From Shinella fusca (GTDB taxonomy: Bacteria; Pseudomonadota; Alphaproteobacteria; Rhizobiales; Rhizobiaceae): a DNA stretch of 64,000 nucleotides. Shown piece after piece: positions 13,889 through 24,212 of the stretch (the first letter of the stretch is position 1; each line of letters starts with the position of its first letter). Made by a program: the position numbers and the translations under genes. The notes under the pieces are model-generated. The model was not told where the DNA came from. It worked only from the letters and a program-made list of their open reading frames with translations, and searched no databases. The stretch covers positions 186,001 through 250,000 of the forward strand of contig NZ_JACHIK010000004.1 in NCBI RefSeq assembly GCF_014203155.1. The letters run 5' to 3'.

Positions 13889-15289
13889 TCAAAGGCGATA
13901 GGCTTTCTTCGCGAGGCCGTAGGCAAGGTCACGCGCAAGATCGTGCGCCTCCGCCTCGTCGAGGCGGTGATCGGCAACGAGCCGGGCGAGGTAGGCGCAG
14001 TCCACCCGCCGCGCCATGTCGTGCCGCGCGGGGATCGACAGGTAGGCGCGGGTATCGTCGTTGAAGCCGACCGTGTTGTAGAAGCCGCAGGTCTCCGTCG
14101 TCGTCTCGCGGAAGCGGCGCATGCCCTCGGGGCTGTCGAAGAACCACCAGGCGGGGCCGAGCCGCAGCGCCGGATAGTGGCCGGCAAGCGGGGCGAGCTC
14201 GCGCGAATAGGTACTCTCGTCGAGCGTGAAGAGGATGAGCGTGAGGGCCGGGTCGTTGCCGACGGCATCGAGCAGCGGCTTCAGCGCGCGCACATAGTCC
14301 GTCGCCTTCGGGATGTCGGCGCCCTTGTCCGGCCCGAAGGCCTCAAAGAGCGAGGGGTTGTGGTTGCGGAACGAGCCGGGATGAAGCTGCATGACGAGGC
14401 CGTCGTCCTGGCTCATGCGCGCCATCTCCGTCAGCATCTGGCCGCGGAAGGCCTCGGCCTCCGCCGCATCCGCCTTGCCGGATAGCACCTTGTCGAACAG
14501 GGCGGCCGCTTCATCCGCCGGCAGGTTGCTCGTTTGCGCGCTGGGATGGCCATGGTCGGAGGCCGTCGCGCCCTGCGCCTTGAAGAAGGCGCGCCGGGCG
14601 TGGTGCGCGGCAAGGTAGCCCGCCCACGTCGCCGGCTCGCCCGTCATGGCGAGAAGCCGTTCCACGTTGCCCGCAAAACCGGCCGCTTCCGGGTCCACCA
14701 CGGCGTCCGGCCGGTAGGTCGGCAGGACGCGGCCGTGCCAGCCCGAGCGGCGCACTGCATCGTGGTGGGCAAGGTCGTCGAGCGCACCGTCCGTCGTGGC
14801 GATCGCCTCGATGCCGAAGGTGTCGTAGAGCGCACGCGGACGCAGTGCCGGGGTGGCGATGGCCGCGGCGATCCGGTCGTAGAGCGCATCGGCGTTCTGC
14901 GGCGTCAGGCGCTCGTCGATACCGAAGACGAGCTCCAGCGAATGCTCGAACCAGAGCCGCGTCGGCGTGCCGGCGAAGAGGTGGAAATGCTCGGCGAAGA
15001 GCCGCCAGATGCGGCGGCCATCGGGGCGGACACCCGTTCCGTCGCGCCGCGCCACGCCGAGGTCTTCCAGCCGCACGCCCTGGGAATAGAGCATCCGCGT
15101 GGCGTAGTGATCGGGCGTGATGAAAAGCGCGGCCGGATCGGGGAACGCCGGATCCTCCGCGTACCAGACGGGGTCCGTATGGCCGTGCGGCGAAACGATC
15201 GGCAGGCCCGCCACGCCGTCGTAGAGGCGCCGGGCGATTGCCCGGATGCCCGGCTCGGCAGGCAGAAGCCGATCAGGATGCAATGCCAT
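13889..15289 (-). CDS. uxaC: Glucuronate/galacturonate isomerase
   Basis: Converts D-glucuronate to D-fructuronate and D-galacturonate to D-tagaturonate at the head of hexuronate catabolism. At 466 residues it has the family length and the metal-binding motif SPHGHTDPVWYAED near 33-46, followed by the family text LFITPDHYATRMLYSQG. The start at 15289 has GGAG upstream. It is the first gene of the operon with the Tat-type ABC importer. A 24-base palindrome (15327-15350) overlaps its probable promoter, and a near-identical motif precedes the kdu operon, so both are probably controlled by the GntR protein at 54971-55741. Confidence 0.95.
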   Translation of the reverse strand: MALHPDRLLPAEPGIRAIARRLYDGVAGLPIVSPHGHTDPVWYAEDPAFPDPAALFITPDHYATRMLYSQGVRLEDLGVARRDGTGVRPDGRRIWRLFAEHFHLFAGTPTRLWFEHSLELVFGIDERLTPQNADALYDRIAAAIATPALRPRALYDTFGIEAIATTDGALDDLAHHDAVRRSGWHGRVLPTYRPDAVVDPEAAGFAGNVERLLAMTGEPATWAGYLAAHHARRAFFKAQGATASDHGHPSAQTSNLPADEAAALFDKVLSGKADAAEAEAFRGQMLTEMARMSQDDGLVMQLHPGSFRNHNPSLFEAFGPDKGADIPKATDYVRALKPLLDAVGNDPALTLILFTLDESTYSRELAPLAGHYPALRLGPAWWFFDSPEGMRRFRETTTETCGFYNTVGFNDDTRAYLSIPARHDMARRVDCAYLARLVADHRLDEAEAHDLARDLAYGLAKKAYRL

Positions 15290-15326
15290 TTCCGCCGTCT
15301 CCTCCCGCGGTCAAGTCCTCAGGGAG

Positions 15327-15350
15327 TTTTGTATACTAGTATGCAAAACC
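15327..15350 (-). promoter_or_regulatory. Palindromic GntR-type operator overlapping the uxaC promoter
   Basis: The 24 bases form an inverted repeat centred at 15338/15339 in which 11 of 12 base pairs match (half site GTTTTGTATACT). It resembles operators of FadR-subfamily GntR proteins such as ExuR/UxuR. On the minus strand it covers a -10-like TATACA (15331-15336), 16 bases from a -35-like TTGACT (15353-15358), so bound protein would block transcription of uxaC. Confidence 0.75.
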
Positions 15351-15545
15351 GAGTCAACCGACGGATTCCATATTACGAGCGACATTTCGCGCAGCTCGCG
15401 GAGCCCCGGCAGCGCGGGGTTTCGCAAGCACGCGCGCGCCGGAGCGGCGCGGTTGGCATGTCTGGATCAGGTGAAGAGGAGAGATGCGGCGATACGGCGC
15501 CGGTGCTGCCATCGCGCACGCCGTCGGCCGGCGGCAAGGCAAAGG

Positions 15546-15574
15546 GCGGCGGCGCCGGTCGATGGCGCCGCCGC
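15546..15574 (-). terminator. GC-rich hairpin after the seven-gene ring-cleavage operon
   Basis: A perfect 11-base stem (15546-15556 with 15564-15574) and a seven-base loop begin 6 bases downstream of the APC permease stop. The downstream minus-strand sequence is not T-rich, so it may be a weak or factor-assisted terminator, or a 3-prime end stabiliser. The rest of 15351-15580 shows no gene. Confidence 0.5.
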
Positions 15575-15580
15575 GGTCCG

Positions 15581-17023
15581 TCAGGTGTTGTTCTGGCCCA
15601 TCCGGGCGTAGGCGGCCGGGTTGGTCGCCTTGAGCCGGCTCGCCATGGCGAAGCCGACGATGCCCGCGGCGGGGATGAGCGCCGGCAGGATGATGCCGAG
15701 CGAACCGCCGGCAGTCTGCGTCAGGTCGCCGAAGTTGATGAAGATGTAGACGAAGAGCGCCGCCATCACGAGGCCGGACACGGCCGGCAGGATCAGCGTC
15801 GTCAGCGCCGGATTGCCGCCGCCCTTCTTGCGGAAGAAGACGATGACGGACAGCGAGGTGATCGTCATCATGCCGAGCACGCCGAGCGTGCCGATCTGGC
15901 TGATCCAGGTGAACATGTTGAGCACCGGATCGAGGCCGAGGCCGGCGAAGACGGCAAGCACGACGAGCGCCATGACCGTCTGCACGACCGAGCCGATATG
16001 CGGGCTCTGGTGGGCGTCGTGCGTGCGGCCGAAGGCGGCCGGCAGCAGGCCTTCGCGGCCGGCCACGTAGCTGTAGCGGGCAATGTAGTTGTGGAAGGCG
16101 CTGATCGCGGCAAAGAGACTGGAGACGAGCAGCAGGCCGGCAATCGCCGGCACCGGCCCGCCGACATAGGTGCCGGCCAGATCGAAGAAGAACGAGGTCG
16201 GATCCGGCAGGGCGCCGATGGCCGGCACGAGCTTGTCGGCCCCGACGCCCGCGATCATCAGCCACGTCGTGAAGACGAAGAAGAGGCCGATCATCAGCAC
16301 CGAGAGATAGGTGGCGCGCGGAATGGTCCTTTCCGGATCCCGCGCCTCCTCGGCATAGATCGTCGTCGCCTCGAAACCGATGAAGGAGCCGAGGCAGAAG
16401 AGGATCGCCGCGGTGAGCGAGCCGGAGAAGATCGCCGTCGTGTCGAAGAAGTTGAAGGAAAGGCCCTCGGCCCCGCCGCTGCCGAGGATCGCGAAATCGA
16501 CCAGCAGCACGACGAGGTATTCGAGCACGACCAGCACGATCATCACCTTTGCCGAGAGGTCGACCTGCCGGTAGCCGAGCGTGCCGACGAGGAGGACGGC
16601 GACGAGGCTCCACAGATACCAGGGCAGGTTGACGCCGAAGCCGGCGAAGACGCCGCTGGCGATGCCGCCGAGAAGGCCGATCAGGCCGAACTGCATGGCG
16701 TTGTAGGCGACGACCGCGATGATCGCGACCGCGCCGGCCATGCGCCCGCCAAGGCCGCGCGCGGCATAGGCGTAGAAGGCGCCGGCATTGGTGACATGGC
16801 GCGACATCGCCACGTAGCCGGCCGAAAAGGCCAGCATGATCAGCGTCATCAGGAGGAAGGTGGCCGGAATGCCGGTCCCGTTGCCGATGAGGAAGGAAAT
16901 CGGCACCGCGCCGGCAACGCCGGTCAAAGGTGCCGCGGCCGAGATCACCATGAAGGTCACGGCGATCAGCCCCAGCGAATTTCTGCGGAGCTGGTTCAGC
17001 CCCGCCGTTGTCACGTCTGTCAT
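15581..17023 (-). CDS. APC-superfamily amino acid/amine permease
   Basis: A 480-residue integral membrane protein with about 12 helices. The N-terminal signature AVTFMVISAAAPLTGVAG and the later FCLGSFIGFEATTIYAEEA mark the APC superfamily. It is the last gene of the operon starting with the nicX-like gene, 78 bases after the flavin reductase. It likely takes up the amine or amino-acid-like compound on which the operon acts. Together with the GS-like ligase this suggests an amino-bearing substrate; the cargo is unknown. Confidence 0.88.
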   Translation of the reverse strand: MTDVTTAGLNQLRRNSLGLIAVTFMVISAAAPLTGVAGAVPISFLIGNGTGIPATFLLMTLIMLAFSAGYVAMSRHVTNAGAFYAYAARGLGGRMAGAVAIIAVVAYNAMQFGLIGLLGGIASGVFAGFGVNLPWYLWSLVAVLLVGTLGYRQVDLSAKVMIVLVVLEYLVVLLVDFAILGSGGAEGLSFNFFDTTAIFSGSLTAAILFCLGSFIGFEATTIYAEEARDPERTIPRATYLSVLMIGLFFVFTTWLMIAGVGADKLVPAIGALPDPTSFFFDLAGTYVGGPVPAIAGLLLVSSLFAAISAFHNYIARYSYVAGREGLLPAAFGRTHDAHQSPHIGSVVQTVMALVVLAVFAGLGLDPVLNMFTWISQIGTLGVLGMMTITSLSVIVFFRKKGGGNPALTTLILPAVSGLVMAALFVYIFINFGDLTQTAGGSLGIILPALIPAAGIVGFAMASRLKATNPAAYARMGQNNT

Positions 17024-17101
17024 TGTTCTCTCCAGTTTTGGTTCCCCATTCGCCGGCTCACCGCACCGGCATCCGCAGCCTCGGTTTGTTTTTCTTGCGC
17101 G

Positions 17102-17608
17102 CTACGACAGTTGAACCGCCCGGTGATAGGCCCGGTGGCCGTAGAGCAGAGAGGCCGGGTTTTCCGACAAGCGGACGTTCATGACACGTCCGATGATGAT
17201 GTGATGCGTTTCCCAGAGCACGGAGGTCGCGACCTGGCACTGGAAGCTCGCCGTCGCGCCGACGAGGGCCGGCTGGCCGAGCTCGCCCGGCGACCAGGGC
17301 GCCTGCTCGAAGCGGGCCGCGTGTTCGCCGGCGGCAAGGCGTCCCGCGAAGAGATCGGAGACCTGATGCTGGTCCTCGTGGAGGAGATTGGCGCAGAAGG
17401 CGCGGTTCTTCAGGATCGCCGCCGCGACGGGGCTCATGTGGTGGAGGCAGGCGAGCAGCGACGGGTGGTCGCCATCGGCCGAGACCGAGGTCAGCGAACT
17501 GATCGTGACGCCGAAACGTCCCGCCTCGCCATCCGTCGTCACCACCGCGACGAAGGTGGCCGCACGGCTCATGCCTTCGAGGAATTGCATGCGAAGTTCC
17601 GGTTTCAT
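17102..17608 (-). CDS. Flavin reductase (HpaC/DIM6-NTAB family)
   Basis: A small NAD(P)H:flavin oxidoreductase of 168 residues from the ATG at 17608, 4 bases after the GS-like gene. The family text FGVTISSLTSVSADGDHPSL (about 32-51) forms the flavin-binding turn and ILKNRAFCANLLHEDQ follows. Such proteins supply reduced FMN/FAD to two-component monooxygenases. The only plausible oxygenase partner in the operon is the acyl-CoA-dehydrogenase-like protein at 20884-22194. That pairing is inference but fits known two-component systems. Confidence 0.88.
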   Translation of the reverse strand: MKPELRMQFLEGMSRAATFVAVVTTDGEAGRFGVTISSLTSVSADGDHPSLLACLHHMSPVAAAILKNRAFCANLLHEDQHQVSDLFAGRLAAGEHAARFEQAPWSPGELGQPALVGATASFQCQVATSVLWETHHIIIGRVMNVRLSENPASLLYGHRAYHRAVQLS

Positions 17609-17612
17609 GGCG

Positions 17613-18956
17613 CTACCCCAGGTCAAAGAAGCGTTGCAGTTCTACATCGGGCACTTTCTTGCAGAATTCGTCGTGCTGGCTCTGGCGGCTGGCGGCGAAG
17701 GCCTCGACGAAACGCTCGCCGAGCCAGTCCTTCGCGAAGGAGGAGGTGCGCAGCCGCGCGATCGCCTCCGGCATGGAGCGGGCGAAATCCGGCCCCGCGC
17801 CTGCCTGCACATAGCCGTTGCCGATCACCTCCGGCTCCGGCTCGATGCCTTCCAGAATGCCGGCAACGCCCGCCGCCACGGTCGCGGCGACCGTCAGGTA
17901 AGGATTGGTGTCGGCGCCCGGCAGGCGGTTTTCGACGCGCAGCGAGCCCGCGTCGTGGCCGACGACGCGGAAGCAGGTCGTGCGGTTCTCGAAGCCCCAG
18001 GTAAGGCCCGGCGGGGCGAAGGTGCCGGGCGCAAAACGCCGGTAGGAATTGACGGTCGGCTGGAAGATCAGCGTCATGTCGCCGATATATCTCTGCAGGC
18101 CGCCGATGAAGTGGCGGAAGGCCTGCGACATGCCGTTTCGGCCGGCCGGATCGTGGAAGACCTTTCGCCCCTGCCCGTCCGTCAGGCTGACATGGAGGTG
18201 GATCGACTGGCTGTCGGCATCCTCCGTCCAGCGCGGCATGAAGGTGACGCACTTGCCCTGCCGTTGCGCCAGCGCCCGCACGAAATTCTTCAGCAGCACG
18301 AGCTGGTCGGCCGGCTCCAGCCCCGTGCCGGCCGCAATGCACGCCTCGAGGAAACCGCCGCCGATCTCCTCGTGCATCTTGGCAAGGTCGATCCTCAACG
18401 GCTCGCAGATCCCGGCCAGCGCCTCGTACCATTCCGTCTGCTGCACCTGGTAGAGCACGAGGTCGTGGCTCTTGTGCATGGTCGCGGTCCTGAGATTGCG
18501 GTAGCCCTTTTCGCGGGCGCTTTCCGGCGTCTCGTCGAACAGCGTGTATTCCAGCTCCATGCCGTAGCGCGGCGCAAAGCCCGCCTTGCCGGCGCGGGCC
18601 AGAACGCGCGTCAGGAGCGAGCGCGGGCAAAGCTCGGCCATCGGCCCGCCATAGTTGGAAAGGACGAGCAGGTCGTGCCCCGGCTTCGACCAGGGCAGGC
18701 GTCGCACCGTCGCGGGATCCACCACCAGCGGGTCGTCGTGGAAATCCGACGCGTCGTCGGAGACGCCCGGGATGTTGAGGACGACGTCCGTCGGGTCCAG
18801 CGCGAAGGTGACCGGGGACATGCCCATGCCGGCGCGGGCGATGCCGGCGAGCGACCGCACGGACACCATCTGCCCGCGAAGAAGGCCGTTCGTATCGGTC
18901 ATGGCGACGGTGGCGAAACGGCTTGCAGGATCGGCGAGGTAGGCGTCGAGGGTCAT
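17613..18956 (-). CDS. Glutamine-synthetase-like gamma-glutamyl ligase
   Basis: A 447-residue glutamine synthetase superfamily member of the type that ligates glutamate to amines (PuuA, IpuC, aniline-type GS-like ligases). The catalytic-domain start GMELEYTLFDE supplies the metal-binding Glu residues. NRTTCFRVVGHDAGSLRVE with ENRLPGADTNPYL forms the substrate region. It is shorter than housekeeping GlnA, and the adenylylation-site region is not recognisable. It is 2 bases downstream of the TetR gene. In this operon it could gamma-glutamylate an aryl amine or amino acid before ring oxidation, or recycle nitrogen; the substrate is unknown. Confidence 0.8.
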   Translation of the reverse strand: MTLDAYLADPASRFATVAMTDTNGLLRGQMVSVRSLAGIARAGMGMSPVTFALDPTDVVLNIPGVSDDASDFHDDPLVVDPATVRRLPWSKPGHDLLVLSNYGGPMAELCPRSLLTRVLARAGKAGFAPRYGMELEYTLFDETPESAREKGYRNLRTATMHKSHDLVLYQVQQTEWYEALAGICEPLRIDLAKMHEEIGGGFLEACIAAGTGLEPADQLVLLKNFVRALAQRQGKCVTFMPRWTEDADSQSIHLHVSLTDGQGRKVFHDPAGRNGMSQAFRHFIGGLQRYIGDMTLIFQPTVNSYRRFAPGTFAPPGLTWGFENRTTCFRVVGHDAGSLRVENRLPGADTNPYLTVAATVAAGVAGILEGIEPEPEVIGNGYVQAGAGPDFARSMPEAIARLRTSSFAKDWLGERFVEAFAASRQSQHDEFCKKVPDVELQRFFDLG

Positions 18957-18958
18957 GG

Positions 18959-19636
18959 TCACTCCGTTTCGGTGGCCGGCGGCGGCGTCAGGGATGAGAG
19001 AACGGCAAGGTCCCTGTCCGGCGCCGTGGAATAGGCGCGCAGGAAGACGCGAAGGCCGTTGCGGATGTAGCGCTCGATGGTCGCCCGGTCGGGCACGGCA
19101 TCGGGAATGTGCAGCGCCTTGTTGCGCGGCGCCGAGAGGATGAGGCCCCAGAGGTCTTCCGCCGCAAGCTCGGCATCGTCGAAGACGAGCCGGCCCGCCG
19201 CGCGCTGGCGTTCCAGATAGGCGATCATGCCGGCGAGCACCCGGTCGGGGCCGGACGCCTGGTAGGCGCGGCCGACATCCGGCAGCCGCTGCGCCTCGCC
19301 GATGATCAGCCGGGCGAGGTTCAGCATGTCTGGACGGAGCACGACATCGGCATAGTGCCAGGAGAAGGCATAGAGTTCGGCGACCATGCCCGAGGCGGTG
19401 GGATACTCGAAGGATTCGAGCATGTGGTCCCGCTCCTCGGTCATCATGGCGGTGAAGAGCTCGTCCTTCGAGGGGAAATACTGGTAGAGCGTCGGCTTGG
19501 AGAGCCCCGCTTCCGCCGCGATGTCGTCCATCGAGGCGCTGACGAAGCCCTTCTGCGAGAAGACGGTGAGCGCGGCATCGAGAATGCGGCGCTCGCGCAG
19601 GATGCGGTTCTGCTGGCGCTTGGGAAGAGCGGTCAT
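18959..19636 (-). CDS. TetR-family regulator inside the ring-cleavage operon
   Basis: A 225-residue one-component repressor. The helix-turn-helix spans about 30-55 (SMDDIAAEAGLSKPTLYQYF). The rest is an all-helical ligand domain with low similarity, resembling AcrR-type C-terminal domains. Its ATG overlaps the stop of the hydrolase gene (ATGA), so it is translated from the same mRNA, implying autoregulation. The probable target is the AT-rich promoter upstream of the nicX-like gene (23301-23350). The inducer should be the pathway substrate or an intermediate. Confidence 0.9.
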   Translation of the reverse strand: MTALPKRQQNRILRERRILDAALTVFSQKGFVSASMDDIAAEAGLSKPTLYQYFPSKDELFTAMMTEERDHMLESFEYPTASGMVAELYAFSWHYADVVLRPDMLNLARLIIGEAQRLPDVGRAYQASGPDRVLAGMIAYLERQRAAGRLVFDDAELAAEDLWGLILSAPRNKALHIPDAVPDRATIERYIRNGLRVFLRAYSTAPDRDLAVLSSLTPPPATETE

Positions 19637-20880
19637 CGCACGACCTCCGACAGGAACGCGCAGAGGACCCTGTTATAGGCCTCGGGCCGCTCGACATTGC
19701 AGACATGGCCCGCATCCTCGATCACCTCGAAGCGGACGAAGGCGCGCGGCGCGGCCGCGACGATGCGGCCCGCAACCCCGCGGATCTCATCGGGGGACGC
19801 GAGCCGGTCGTGCCGCCCCGTCATCATCAGCACCGGCATGGCGAGCCGGGAGAAGTCGAAGCGTTCCGGCGGATGGGTGAAGCAATGGAGCGCATCGCGG
19901 TAGGTCGCGGCCGGAATGGCCGCCATGGAGGCGAACAGCGCCTGCCGGACCGCCTCGTCCGCATCCGGCCCTGCCAGCACGTCGACGACCGCCGGCGCGA
20001 AATCGGCCGGCGTCCTGCCGGCGTTCAGCGGCACTTCGCGGGCGGCCTGGAATGCCTCGCGCTCGGCGATGCCGGCCTCCGACATGCCCGTGCAGCCGCC
20101 GGAAAGGACGAGGCCCGCCAGCCTCTCCGGATGGCGCATGGCGAAGGACGTGGCGATCCACGACCCGTAGGAAAGGCCGCAGAGCACGAGCCGCGCCGCG
20201 CCCAGCGCATCGGCGACCCGGAGGATGTCGCCGCAATAATCCTCGACCGTGCTCTGTGCCGCGCCGCGCCCGCTTTCGCCATAGCCGCGCAGGTCGAGCG
20301 CGGCGGCCCGCGCCGCCGGCGCCACAGCGCGAAGCTGCGCCAGCCAGTTCGTCCGCCCGCCGCCGATGCCGTGCAGGAAAAGCACGAGCGGCCCCGGCCT
20401 TTGCGGCGTGACGGTCAGCGCCAGCGGCGGCTCGCCGTCGAGGAAGACGGTTTCGAGGTCTCCGGAAAGCTCGCCGAGCGCGGCGATCCCCATCTCGAAG
20501 ATCGCCTTCGTGCCGGCGGCAATCGCCGGGGCGCGCTCGGCGGAGGCGGAAAACCGTGCCGACCATTCGATCCGGCTGCCACCGCCCTCGTCGGGAAAAA
20601 CCGCAAGCCGGGCGTCGTAACGCTCCACCCCGGCAATGCCTTCGAGATGCGTATAGGCGAGCACCCGGTCGGTATCGGAGCGGTAGGTGAGCTGTTCGCG
20701 GTAGAGCGTGTCCTCGCCCTTTGCCGTGAAGGCGCGGATCAGGGCGCCGCGCGCGTCGCGCTCGGCCCGGATCTCCGCAATCGCCGGGTGCCAGGCGCCG
20801 CAGAAATTCCCGGCAACGGCCCACACCGCGGCAGGTTCCGCCGCGCAATGCCCGATGACCTGAACCTGCTCCTCGGCCAT
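19633..20880 (-). CDS. SRPBCC-domain/alpha-beta hydrolase fusion protein
   Basis: A 415-residue two-domain protein. Residues 1-145 look like an SRPBCC (polyketide cyclase/START-like) domain. Residues 160-415 are an alpha/beta hydrolase with HGIGGGRTNW (170-179), nucleophile elbow GLSYGS with Ser237, Asp358 in TGRHDRL and His392 in DAGHVC, so the triad is intact. Next to a NicX-like dioxygenase, the hydrolase half would be expected to act as a NicD-type deformylase on N-formylmaleamate or an analogue. The SRPBCC half may bind a hydrophobic ring intermediate. I do not recognise this fusion from characterised pyridine pathways. Confidence 0.75.
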   Translation of the reverse strand: MAEEQVQVIGHCAAEPAAVWAVAGNFCGAWHPAIAEIRAERDARGALIRAFTAKGEDTLYREQLTYRSDTDRVLAYTHLEGIAGVERYDARLAVFPDEGGGSRIEWSARFSASAERAPAIAAGTKAIFEMGIAALGELSGDLETVFLDGEPPLALTVTPQRPGPLVLFLHGIGGGRTNWLAQLRAVAPAARAAALDLRGYGESGRGAAQSTVEDYCGDILRVADALGAARLVLCGLSYGSWIATSFAMRHPERLAGLVLSGGCTGMSEAGIAEREAFQAAREVPLNAGRTPADFAPAVVDVLAGPDADEAVRQALFASMAAIPAATYRDALHCFTHPPERFDFSRLAMPVLMMTGRHDRLASPDEIRGVAGRIVAAAPRAFVRFEVIEDAGHVCNVERPEAYNRVLCAFLSEVVR

Positions 20881-20883
20881 GGC

Positions 20884-22194
20884 TCAGCGAAGCCCCTTCA
20901 GCGTTCCGCCCGTGCCGCGCCAGAGCGAGGAGCGCGCGCCGCCCTCGTCGCCCGGCGCCTTGTCGAGCTCGTCCAGGTCGTAGAGCGTCAGCACGGAGAG
21001 GTAATCCTCCATGATCTCGGACGTATAGGGCAGCATCAGCGCGCCGCAGCGGCTGTCGCGATACATGCGCTCCAGCGGCAGGGATTTCAGCATGGACTGC
21101 CCGCCGCAGGTGCGGATGGCGAGCGCCGCGATCTCCTGCACGCCCTCCATCACGTTGTACTGGGCGGCATACATGCGCATGACCTGCGCCTTGCTCGGAA
21201 AGCCCTGCGCCTCCATGAAGGCCTGCCACCAGAGCGCGCGCATGGCGGCGAGCTGGGCGTACATCTTGCCGACGGTGATGCGCTTCGTGCCGAACATGCG
21301 CCGGTCGGCCGGCGGCTGGCCGGGCAGCTCGCCGCGCAGATACGCCACGGTGAAATCGAAGGCCCCCTGCGCCACGCCCATATAGGTCGGCGAGAGCGTC
21401 GCCATCATGTGCGGCCAGTGCGGCAGGGTCTTGATGAAGATGCCGCGCGGCATCATCAGGTCTTCCTCGGTGACGAAGACGTCCTTCAGCACGAGGTCGC
21501 GGCTGTTGGTGCCGCGCATGCCGAGCGGATCCCAGCTTCCGGTGACGGAAAGGCCGGGCGCATCCTTGTGCACGACGAAGATCATCGTGTCCTCGTGACG
21601 CGGCTCCACGCCCTCGAAATGCTCGGTGCAGACGATGGAATAGTAGTCGCAATAGCCGGCGAGCGAGGCGAACTTCTTGAAACCGTTGATGACCCAGCCG
21701 CCGTCGACCTTGCGGCAAGCAGTCTGCGCAGGCTTCGACGTCCAGTTCTGCCCGGCCTCGGAGATGGGCTGCGAATAGATGCCCTGCTCCTTGACCGCGC
21801 GGCGGAACTGGCGCTCGCGCAGCGGGGCGAAGGCGGCGCGGTCCTCGTCGGTGAGGCTCGGCAGTTCGTACATGAACCGCGACCACATCATGGAGGAGTT
21901 GTGCATGTTGAAGGTGAGTGCCGTCGCGCCGCAATACTTGCCGATCTCCGCGCCGACCATCGCATATTCGCCGAGGCTGAAGCCGTGCCCGCCGAATTCC
22001 TGCGGCACCGTCAGCGTCAGGAAGCCCTCGGCGGCGAGGTCCTTGTAGTTCTCCACCGGAAAGGACGCCTCGTCGTCGATGGCCCTTGCGCGCGGCGCGA
22101 AACGCTCGCGGCCGAGCTCGTTGATGCGGGTGAGGACCGCCAGCACTTCGGGCCGGATGCGGGAGAGGTCGTAGTAGTCTGCAGGTTCGCTCAT
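20884..22194 (-). CDS. Acyl-CoA dehydrogenase-like flavoprotein, probable monooxygenase
   Basis: A 436-residue protein with the acyl-CoA dehydrogenase fold: N-terminal helical domain, FAD region around 142-240 (LGMRGTNSRDL near 224-234) and C-terminal helices (RTCGGQSM 361-368, ERMYRDSR 375-382). The segment that should carry the catalytic YEGT glutamate reads LMLPYTSEI (386-394), with no acidic residue at the position. The alternative base position seen in isovaleryl-CoA dehydrogenases is also not Glu. Fold members that lost the base (DszC, IacA type) are flavin-dependent monooxygenases. A flavin reductase in the same operon supports an oxygenase role. An acyl-CoA substrate is not excluded. 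Confidence 0.75.
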   Translation of the reverse strand: MSEPADYYDLSRIRPEVLAVLTRINELGRERFAPRARAIDDEASFPVENYKDLAAEGFLTLTVPQEFGGHGFSLGEYAMVGAEIGKYCGATALTFNMHNSSMMWSRFMYELPSLTDEDRAAFAPLRERQFRRAVKEQGIYSQPISEAGQNWTSKPAQTACRKVDGGWVINGFKKFASLAGYCDYYSIVCTEHFEGVEPRHEDTMIFVVHKDAPGLSVTGSWDPLGMRGTNSRDLVLKDVFVTEEDLMMPRGIFIKTLPHWPHMMATLSPTYMGVAQGAFDFTVAYLRGELPGQPPADRRMFGTKRITVGKMYAQLAAMRALWWQAFMEAQGFPSKAQVMRMYAAQYNVMEGVQEIAALAIRTCGGQSMLKSLPLERMYRDSRCGALMLPYTSEIMEDYLSVLTLYDLDELDKAPGDEGGARSSLWRGTGGTLKGLR

Positions 22195-22216
22195 CGTCAG
22201 TCCTTCTCAAATCCGG

Positions 22217-23266
22217 TCAGAGGGCGAGATCGCCCTGGAGACGGCCTTCCTTCACCACAACGAGGCCATCGAGCGTGATCGTGCACTTGCGCATCGGCAG
22301 GTCGAAATGCCCCTCGGTGAAGCGGCCGGCATATTGGTTGGCGCCGGTCGACCAGAGGAAATTGCCGGCCCAGGCGCGGAACTCGACGGCCTGCATGTCG
22401 CGCTTGTCGTAGAGCGCGCCGGAGACCCAGCGGGCGGCAGGGTTCATGCCCCAGCCGACATGGGAAAAGCCGTAGGCCAGCGGATCCTCCCAGGCTTCCA
22501 TGTAATCGCGGAAGAGCTCGGCATCCAAACCGTCGCCCTTGATTTCCTTGACGAAATCGTTCTCGACGGTGAAGTCGATGCGGCTCGTCAGGTAGCTCTT
22601 GAAGGTGAGGTTCATGTCGCCGACATCCATGACGATGCGGCCGTTGACCGTGTTCGGCCCCGGGAAGGCGAGGCAGAGCCCGCCCGGCCAGTGGGCGACC
22701 GCGCCCGGCGTGGTGCCGAAGCCCGGCGTGCCGCCGCAGGGGGCGTTGCGAAGGTCGATGGCAAGGTCCGTGCCCGCCGCCGAAGTCACGCGCATTTCGC
22801 TCGCCTCGCGCAGCATGCGGATGCCGAGCGCCACCTTCGGGCCGAGCTCGGCCTTCGGCTCGCAGCGCTCGAGGATTTCCGGATGCTCGTTGCAGATCAC
22901 GAGGATGCGCGCGCCCGCCTCCTCGATCTCCGGCCATTCGGCGGCGTGGATCATGCCCTCGACGGTGCAGTCGACGATGATCTCGCACTGCTTCATGGCC
23001 TCGATCGCCGCCCGGTTGCCCTGGATGGCAAGGGAGGTGCCCGTCGACTTGACGGGAACCGGCGCCGTCTGGCGCGGCGTCGGCATGGTGATCATGCAGT
23101 AGTCGGCACCAAGATCGTGGCAGGCAAGGTCGGCAAGCTGCACCAGCACGGGCCGCGACTGCGTCTCCGCAACGATGGCCACGCGCGTTCCACGGCCTAT
23201 GCCATTGAGCACGAATACCCGTCGGAAGCAGGCAAGCCACTTCCCTTCAATGCGCTCCTGCAACAT
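22217..23266 (-). CDS. nicX: NicX-type 2,5-dihydroxypyridine 5,6-dioxygenase
   Basis: A 349-residue extradiol-like enzyme of the NicX family, which opens 2,5-dihydroxypyridine to N-formylmaleamate. The iron ligands of NicX are conserved in context: His in YGFSHVGWGM (H269), and His and Asp in GHFDLPMRKC (H320, D322). Further family text is IVMDVGDMNLTFKSYL (211-226) and WAGNFLWSTGANQYAG (299-314). Databases sometimes label this family aminopeptidase T-like, but the ligand set fits the dioxygenase. The start has a GGGAGAA RBS. It heads the seven-gene operon; the true ring substrate could be a substituted hydroxypyridine. Confidence 0.82.
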   Translation of the reverse strand: MLQERIEGKWLACFRRVFVLNGIGRGTRVAIVAETQSRPVLVQLADLACHDLGADYCMITMPTPRQTAPVPVKSTGTSLAIQGNRAAIEAMKQCEIIVDCTVEGMIHAAEWPEIEEAGARILVICNEHPEILERCEPKAELGPKVALGIRMLREASEMRVTSAAGTDLAIDLRNAPCGGTPGFGTTPGAVAHWPGGLCLAFPGPNTVNGRIVMDVGDMNLTFKSYLTSRIDFTVENDFVKEIKGDGLDAELFRDYMEAWEDPLAYGFSHVGWGMNPAARWVSGALYDKRDMQAVEFRAWAGNFLWSTGANQYAGRFTEGHFDLPMRKCTITLDGLVVVKEGRLQGDLAL

Positions 23267-23300
23267 TGAATTCTCCCGGTTCTGGATCGCCCCTCAGCGA

Positions 23301-23350
23301 TTTCTTTACTTATGAGTTAAAAATTCTTTTAAGTCTGAAGTTTTGTCAAG
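23301..23350 (-). promoter_or_regulatory. Candidate promoter of the nicX operon
   Basis: An AT-rich stretch in otherwise GC-rich DNA. On the minus strand a perfect TTGACA lies at 23344-23349, with an AT-rich but imperfect -10 about 17 bases away (GAATTT, 23321-23326). Weak dyad symmetry (ACTTA...TAAGT) around 23308-23334 could be the TetR site. The leader to the ATG is about 50 bases. The rest of 23267-23471 has no gene. Confidence 0.5.
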
Positions 23351-23471
23351 TGATAATTCCAGAGGGAATTTCACGCCGCGAAACTGGACGATTTCCGCCC
23401 GTTCGCCGGCGATGGGAAAGCGCACGGCGTTGCTCGATATGTGCTTGTTTTGTCGGGAAAAGACGGTGCCG

Positions 23472-24212
23472 TCAGTAGGTGGCCCGGCCGCCCGAGAGGT
23501 CGAAGACCGCCCCGGTGGTGAAGCTGTTTTCCTTCGAGACCAGCCAGGCCACCATGGCGGCGGCTTCCTCGACGTCGAGGAAGCGCCCGCGGGGGATCTT
23601 GCCGCGCATGTATTCGATGAATTCGGGCGTGAGCTGTTCGAGGATGCGCGTTTCGGCCGTCGCCGGCGTTATGGCGTTGACGGCGATGTCGTAGCCGGCA
23701 AGTTCCTTGCCGAGCGACTTGGTAAGCCCGATCACGGCAGCCTTCGATGCCGAATAGGCCGAGGCGTTCGGATTGCCCTCCTTGCCGGCGATGGAGGCGA
23801 TGTTGACGATGCGCCCGTAGCCGCGCGCCTTCATGCCCGGCACCGCCGCGCGGCAGACATGGAACGTGCCGTGCAGGTTGACGTCGATGATCGCCTTCCA
23901 CATCGCCACGTCATAGGCGTCGAGCGGCGCGGCGGGGCCGGCGATGCCGGCGGAGTTGACGACGATCGAGACCGGCCCGGAAATATCCTCGCTCGCTTTC
24001 ATCGCGGCCTCGACGGCGGCATGGTCGGTGACGTCGACAGCGATGCTGCCGCCACCGAGGCTCGCCGCCGCATCGCGTGCGAGCGGGCCGTCGATGTCCC
24101 ACAGCGTCACCCGGGCGCCGGACGCCGCCATGCGCCTCGCCATGGCATAGCCGAGGCCCTGGCCGCCGCCGGTGACGACGGCATGCTGCCCGGAAAGGTC
24201 GATCTGGTTCAT
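23472..24212 (-). CDS. Short-chain dehydrogenase/reductase, sugar or polyol type
   Basis: A 246-residue classical SDR: cofactor motif TGGGQGLG (15-22), NSAG near 85, catalytic Ser and YSASK (about 137-157). An acidic residue after beta-2 (WDIDG) favours NAD over NADP. It closes the minus-strand operon with the CUT1 importer, 12 bases after permease 2. It may oxidise an imported sugar or polyol (for example a tetrose or tetritol) towards erythronate or threonate; that is inference from context. I cannot assign a substrate. Confidence 0.8.
   Translation of the reverse strand: MNQIDLSGQHAVVTGGGQGLGYAMARRMAASGARVTLWDIDGPLARDAAASLGGGSIAVDVTDHAAVEAAMKASEDISGPVSIVVNSAGIAGPAAPLDAYDVAMWKAIIDVNLHGTFHVCRAAVPGMKARGYGRIVNIASIAGKEGNPNASAYSASKAAVIGLTKSLGKELAGYDIAVNAITPATAETRILEQLTPEFIEYMRGKIPRGRFLDVEEAAAMVAWLVSKENSFTTGAVFDLSGGRATY

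Follow-up and report, generated by a model that had tools for sequence, protein, structure and literature searches.

A conserved seven-gene operon with a divergent NicX-like protein in Shinella fusca, a candidate catabolic route for an N-heteroaromatic or aminated aromatic compound

We analyzed a 64,000-nucleotide stretch of the Shinella fusca genome (RefSeq contig NZ_JACHIK010000004.1, positions 186,001 to 250,000), here called the window, which contains a seven-gene operon of catabolic type. The genes all lie on the minus strand and run from position 23266 down to 15581 in the order nicX-like dioxygenase, acyl-CoA dehydrogenase (ACAD)-like protein, SRPBCC-alpha/beta hydrolase, TetR regulator, glutamine synthetase (GS)-like ligase, flavin reductase, and APC permease (Table 1). 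They are separated by 22, 3, -4, 2, 4, and 78 bases when the flavin reductase is started at its first ATG (17608), a start set by comparison with a related locus (L060) in place of the mechanical TTG start at 17626. Pfam names six of the seven proteins, and G+C at the third codon position is 0.85 to 0.91 in all seven genes, which fits real genes. Coordinates and domain assignments bear out an earlier note on this DNA, which had listed these genes in this order, with gaps or overlaps of -4 to 78 bases, and had read them as one degradation operon.

Table 1. Genes and regulatory features of the operon region, in window coordinates
Feature	Position	Strand	Basis
TTGACA, -35-like box of operon promoter	23344..23349	-	sequence
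Palindrome TTAACTCATAAGTAAA, probable TetR operator	23305..23320	-	recurs upstream of relatives' operons
NicX-like non-haem iron ring-cleavage dioxygenase, 349 aa	22217..23266	-	7cn3 match; Fe ligands kept
ACAD-fold protein, probable oxygenase component of two-component flavin monooxygenase, 436 aa	20884..22194	-	Pfam ACAD domains; catalytic Glu absent
SRPBCC (Polyketide_cyc2) + alpha/beta hydrolase fusion, 415 aa	19633..20880	-	PF10604, PF00561
TetR/AefR-like regulator, 225 aa	18959..19636	-	PF00440, PF14246
GS-like ligase, probably not an ammonia ligase, 447 aa	17613..18956	-	PF00120
Flavin reductase, 168 aa counted from ATG	17102..17608	-	PF01613; RutF/HpaC-like, below NCBIfam cut-offs
APC amino acid/amine permease, 480 aa	15581..17023	-	PF13520, PF00324
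Intrinsic terminator, 11 G-C pairs	15546..15574	-	6 bases past APC stop codon; T-rich tail

A synteny search found this gene order conserved far beyond close relatives. NicX-like proteins occur in 53 of 297 genomes of the family, 15 of them (the S. fusca genome included) at 72 to 100% identity, and the arrangement is not a product of chance, because 11 of 14 fetched Rhizobiaceae regions keep all seven genes in order, counting L036, whose hydrolase match comes in two pieces, and L037, whose permease runs off the contig. The other regions are one without the reductase, one at a contig edge, and one without GS, reductase, and permease. For the SDR, uxaC, and solute-binding-protein genes that flank the operon in the window, the edges of the fetched regions hold nothing closely similar. 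The uxaC gene (glucuronate isomerase, 13889-15289) is the next one downstream and is itself flanked on either side by ABC transporter genes, and we saw no uxaC adjoining the operon in these regions. In a sample of the class, 31 of 385 genomes match at E 1e-60 or better, the best apart from the own genome being 59% identical.

We further scanned named genomes, some of which also supplied the Rhizobiaceae regions; the best 80 loci comprise 64 of the window's type (window-type) and 16 of a sister type. Downstream genes were counted in those 51 of the 64 window-type loci whose downstream sequence reaches 7 kb or more, and upstream genes in 54 of the 64. The 51 loci carry ACAD (49), hydrolase (50), TetR (49), GS (40), flavin reductase (37), and APC (27) genes, and 26 have all seven on one strand. 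Strains that carry the complete cassette include Mesorhizobium loti LU and Cypionkella aquatica. Rhizobiaceae and Rhodobacteraceae share the order but not the flanks, and the nicX-like core is also found in a SAR116 cell and some Gammaproteobacteria. In a tree of 50 rows, the window type falls within its own 28-row clade (100/100), separate from NicX, that mixes Rhizobiaceae, Rhodobacteraceae, SAR116, Gammaproteobacteria, and one Chloroflexota bin; such a mixture of hosts suggests that the cassette has moved by horizontal transfer. Copies lie on plasmid-labelled records in Ensifer adhaerens, Sinorhizobium RAC02, Aminobacter, and Shinella PSBB067, the last being a 4.6 Mb record that is perhaps a chromosome. 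We regard the operon and its conservation as solid.

Upstream of the nicX-like gene, a palindrome begins 29 bases after the start of a TTGACA box. It has no second match in the window at up to 2 mismatches, and its pattern TTWACTNNNNAGTWAA matches exactly once in the whole 4.85 Mb genome. Among the 54 upstream regions (the window and 53 window-type relatives) the palindrome is found with 0 mismatches in 28, 1 in 12, 2 in 6, and 3 in 5, with no match in 3, so that 40/54 match within 1 mismatch and 46/54 within 2; random 250-base stretches of the same loci match at rates of 0.06% and 0.36%, respectively. The pattern was chosen after viewing these regions and close relatives are counted repeatedly, so the counts describe the motif and are no independent test of it; this choice has less bearing on the uniqueness of the exact match in the genome and on the distance to TTGAC, which stands no more than 45 bases before the palindrome in 44 of the 51 matching regions (41 of them at 27 to 30 bases) and is absent in 7. 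A strict promoter scan of 15250-23500 returned no sigma-70-type site. Terminator-like sites in the region number 5, against 4.2 expected by shuffling, so the case for the terminator after the permease comes from its position and stem strength. Palindrome, TTGAC spacing, and terminator fit a single repressed unit: the seven genes look like one transcription unit, and at the sequence level a palindrome stands at the promoter of the very operon that holds the tetR gene, whose product probably binds there and represses the whole unit.

Neither Pfam nor NCBIfam has a model that matches the NicX-like protein. Its only PDB sequence match is NicX (7cn3, E 4e-56), to which it is 35% identical over 329 NicX positions. 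Its predicted model fits 7cn3 with a TM score of 0.86, at a mean pLDDT of 76.9; the value drops below 50 in parts of 273-303, a segment close to two iron ligands. According to the accessible portion of PMC7910607, NicX binds iron through His265, Ser302, His318, and Asp320 and holds 2,5-dihydroxypyridine (DHP) through Glu177 and His189, its E177A variant keeps 2.7% of activity, and no substrate besides DHP has been reported so far. All four iron ligands are conserved in 107/107 aligned rows (an alignment that includes some genomes twice), which upholds the earlier assignment to the NicX type; the protein is a member of the NicX superfamily, and His105 and His189 of NicX are also kept in the window. 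Position 177, by contrast, is Thr180 in the window's protein, and it is Thr in 74/74 window-type rows and in no other row; Glu is found in 3/107 rows (NicX and two nic-type clusters), Gly, Val, Ile, Ser, or Ala in 26 sister-type rows, and Gln in four more distant rows. These counts, like those on ACAD frames below, omit loci whose frame the gene chooser missed. Because Glu177 is replaced by Thr throughout the window type, DHP, the cleavage substrate proposed in the earlier note, becomes doubtful, and the protein is probably not a DHP dioxygenase.

The sister NicX-like clade, with 56 to 59% identity and other residues at position 177, occurs in Acidimicrobiia and other Actinomycetota (L186, L188, L190-L195, L198) and in Burkholderiales (L196, L199, L202). 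A CoA-ligase-like gene, named from sequence without a profile search, lies beside NicX in 14 of the 16 sister-type loci, and the clade possibly serves another pathway.

The ACAD-fold protein has Pro at the position of the MCAD base and no Glu at the position used in isovaleryl-CoA dehydrogenase, the two places that we take to hold the catalytic Glu in this family. Glu is missing from both positions in 64 of 65 nicX-adjacent ACAD-type frames of the named-genome loci, the exception being a minus-strand gene in a sister-type locus (L187), and all five ACAD-type frames farther from nicX in the same loci have Glu at one of them. This recount is by position; an earlier split of the copies (66 cluster-type, 6 other) had relied on the very C-terminal motif at issue. 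Among solved proteins, 5gj7 and 5z8t are closest in sequence (27 to 28% identity); 5z8t bears the title of a flavin-containing monooxygenase, and a literature search on the two entries found no paper. Against the model, Foldseek and VIA-align rank solved dehydrogenases and monooxygenases alike. A 45% identical relative in Dolichospermum sits among mobile, toxin-antitoxin, and unnamed genes and gave no clue. The "acyl-CoA dehydrogenase" is more likely a flavin monooxygenase, the oxygenase part of a two-component system. The oxygenase and flavin reductase pair foreseen earlier is supported, and the dehydrogenase name gives way to that of a probable monooxygenase component.

The genome encodes seven GS-family proteins, including that of the operon, which keeps the ATP, metal, and glutamate motifs and carries GTFAP where the own GlnA-like protein (L203) and the solved 8oow have GYEAP, the Glu of which is presumably the ammonia-side Glu327 of glutamine synthetase. 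The remaining five also lack Glu at this site, so the change is common among GS-like ligases. Scores of 173.8 of 650 and 175.6 of 469.6 bits leave the operon protein under the NCBIfam cut-offs for gamma-glutamylputrescine synthetase and type III GS. It is probably not an ammonia ligase, in agreement with the earlier note, which had proposed gamma-glutamylation. The hydrolase has a GLSYG nucleophile motif at 235-239, with Asp and His motifs farther on. Its similarity to two hydrolases from nic-type clusters is so low (29.6% over 98 and 28.4% over 74 residues, short and weak matches) that the NicD-type deformylation suggested earlier is weakened.

Several variants of the cassette join its parts. 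Hydrolase and TetR form one open reading frame (ORF) of about 650 to 690 aa in nine loci (L164, L165, L166, L167, L169, L171, L173, L177, and L181), with coordinates L166:11355-13352 and L177:11335-13335 in two named strains; the fusion domains were checked in these two and in L173. Pseudooctadecabacter is one carrier of a fused hydrolase-TetR. Seven of the nine are in the NicX tree, where six group together (99/95) and L164 stands beside that group. The L173 frame, from a metagenome bin, runs on through GS to a total of 1139 aa and includes a repeat that may reflect an assembly error. Four further loci (L124, L128, L162, and L168) have long ORFs ahead of GS (694 to 878 aa); these were not counted as fusions, because they are in the GS frame and by position out of frame with TetR. 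Aminobacter has its flavin reductase joined to a LysR substrate-binding domain, a LysR-type domain being carried by 8 of the 51 window-type loci; the fusion at L060:10251-11429 lacks the DNA-binding part.

A cupin and an FAH-family hydrolase lie upstream, on either strand, in 18 of the 54 loci with enough upstream sequence; the Aminobacter cupin has a nitrilase-family gene and a flavin reductase for neighbors, and its hits to gentisate/5-aminosalicylate dioxygenase models stay below their cut-offs. The upstream module of L060, L129, and other loci comprises a gentisate-dioxygenase-like cupin, an FAH hydrolase, a Nit6803-type nitrilase, and a second flavin reductase. A split glutamate-synthase-like set at L169:13331-17850 (class II amidotransferase, FwdC-like protein, GltB-like FMN domain, and class I amidotransferase) adjoins a cassette without GS, and parts of it are also seen in L143, L127, and L179.

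We consider the chances about evenly balanced that the seven genes form a catabolic operon under repressor control, whose substrate would be an N-heteroaromatic (or aminated aromatic) compound resembling an amine or amino acid. Sequence-level support for this comes from the gene identities, the iron site, the missing ACAD base, the changed GS site, the gene order, the palindrome, and the terminator. Chemistry of the hydroxylation, ring-opening, and hydrolysis type is likely; the individual reactions and their order can be sketched as follows. TetR would sit on the palindrome near the transcription start and be released by the substrate or an early product, and the APC permease would import the compound. 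The flavin reductase would supply reduced flavin to the ACAD-fold oxygenase for ring hydroxylation, the NicX-like iron dioxygenase would open the hydroxylated ring by extradiol-like C-C cleavage, and the SRPBCC-alpha/beta hydrolase would act on the ring-opened product by hydrolysis. The GS-like enzyme would link the gamma-carboxyl of glutamate to an amine, either the incoming one (as protection) or one released after ring opening. A fuller reading, put forward tentatively and somewhat doubtful as a whole, is that of a pathway that is widespread and passes between hosts by horizontal transfer: a new NicX clade would cleave a ring that is not DHP, a dehydrogenase-fold monooxygenase would hydroxylate it, a GS-like ligase would gamma-glutamylate a pathway amine, and, in part of the clade, the TetR repressor is fused to the pathway hydrolase, making enzyme and gene switch one molecule.

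The operon could instead be the homarine (N-methylpicolinate) operon or a close relative, with hydroxylation, a NicX-style cut next to the nitrogen, deformylation, and conversion of the product to N-methylglutamate and glutamate, which we think rather unlikely. A 2026 study (Nat Microbiol) reportedly places the homarine operon in Rhodobacteraceae, SAR116, and SAR11; the window-type clade is likewise common in Rhodobacteraceae and includes one SAR116 cell, but no SAR11 is among the matches listed, and many carriers come from soil or freshwater. The split glutamate synthase beside the cassette in L127, L143, L169, and L179 (profiles run on L169) resembles, we presume, N-methylglutamate synthase, and TMADH-like and GcvT genes adjoin the cassette in L060 and L169, but such suggestive neighbors are confined to few loci. 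N-methylglutamate dehydrogenase does participate in homarine catabolism, according to the accessible part of PMC13390433. An N-methyl picolinate would have no need of Glu177, and C5-C6 cleavage followed by deformylation would yield the glutamate skeleton, yet the GS gene would be left without an obvious role. A divergent nic/pic-type DHP route, with the ACAD-fold protein as hydroxylase and the maleamate branch encoded elsewhere, is unlikely. NicX is indeed the sole PDB sequence match and its iron ligands, His105, and His189 are all kept; the maleamate branch is absent from the operon, as the earlier note had seen in the window, and elsewhere the genome offers only distant maleate-isomerase-like (30%) and isochorismatase-like (34%) proteins. 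Such a route must contend with Thr at position 177 in every window-type row, where NicX and the two nic-type clusters have Glu, with the small residual activity of E177A (in the portion of PMC7910607 cited above), and with an operon that, unlike those two clusters, lacks nicC, nicE, and nicF.

A benzenoid substrate, that is, an aminophenol or a tyramine-like aromatic amine whose para-dihydroxylated ring the NicX-like enzyme would cut, appears quite unlikely: we know of no NicX-family enzyme that acts on a benzenoid ring. Amines would suit the APC permease and the GS-like ligase, an annotated tyramine oxidase subunit lies near the cassette in L060, the gentisate/5-aminosalicylate dioxygenase-like cupin adjoins it in 18/54 loci, and homoprotocatechuate-type neighbors are found in L165 and, by shared gene families, in L135, L137, and L142 (mostly by eye). 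These neighbors may, however, be separate pathways on catabolic islands, and of two L165 proteins scanned one has glyoxalase/extradiol-type domains and the other no Pfam match. That unrelated functions were thrown together in a detoxification or biosynthetic side branch, with no degradation route at all, is very improbable; GS, flavin reductase, or permease is missing from some loci, but the conserved order, the single palindrome, the single terminator, and the presence of both a permease and a ring-cleavage enzyme all speak for a common task. We also considered the mimosine/3-hydroxy-4-pyridone pathway and discarded it, since PydA is described as belonging to the class III extradiol dioxygenases (PMC3637104, as far as its accessible text goes) and is not NicX-like.

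A repressor-controlled catabolic operon of this kind would matter in several ways. A clade that keeps the iron site and changes a substrate-holding residue allows a direct test of substrate change in the NicX family, and the hydrolase-repressor fusion found in nature makes it possible to test whether a pathway enzyme can exert control. That rhizobia from soil, Rhodobacteraceae from freshwater and the sea, and a SAR116 cell all carry the cassette or its core suggests that the compound is a common natural one.

We found no known pathway with the seven-gene set among open-licence PubMed Central papers, judged by titles and the opening lines of abstracts. The homarine catabolism operon possibly shares its chemistry and a similar range of taxa. 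The nic-type clusters on plasmids of Pantoea dispersa and Azospirillum ramasamyi likewise combine a NicX homologue, a monooxygenase, and a hydrolase, but differ from the operon in that their monooxygenase is FAD-dependent, in their Asp/Glu racemase-family and isochorismatase-family genes, and in Glu177. The GS-like protein shares a GS catalytic domain with ATP, metal, and glutamate motifs with GMAS and gamma-glutamylputrescine synthetase, and an altered ammonia-side residue with the GS-like 5dm3 and 11zs, while scoring far below the curated cut-offs for such gamma-glutamyl ligases. Compared with two-component ACAD-fold monooxygenases (5gj7/5z8t; HpaH/HsaA/DszC, nitrososynthase type), the ACAD-fold protein of the operon is only 27 to 28% identical to 5gj7 and 5z8t, and solved dehydrogenases fit its model equally well, but it has in common with these monooxygenases the ACAD fold, the absent catalytic Glu, and a flavin reductase, here within the operon. 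NicX itself (7cn3/7cup) differs in sequence (35% identity), in Glu177, and in its nic/pic partner genes, and resembles the operon's NicX-like protein in fold (TM 0.86), in the four iron ligands, and in His105 and His189.

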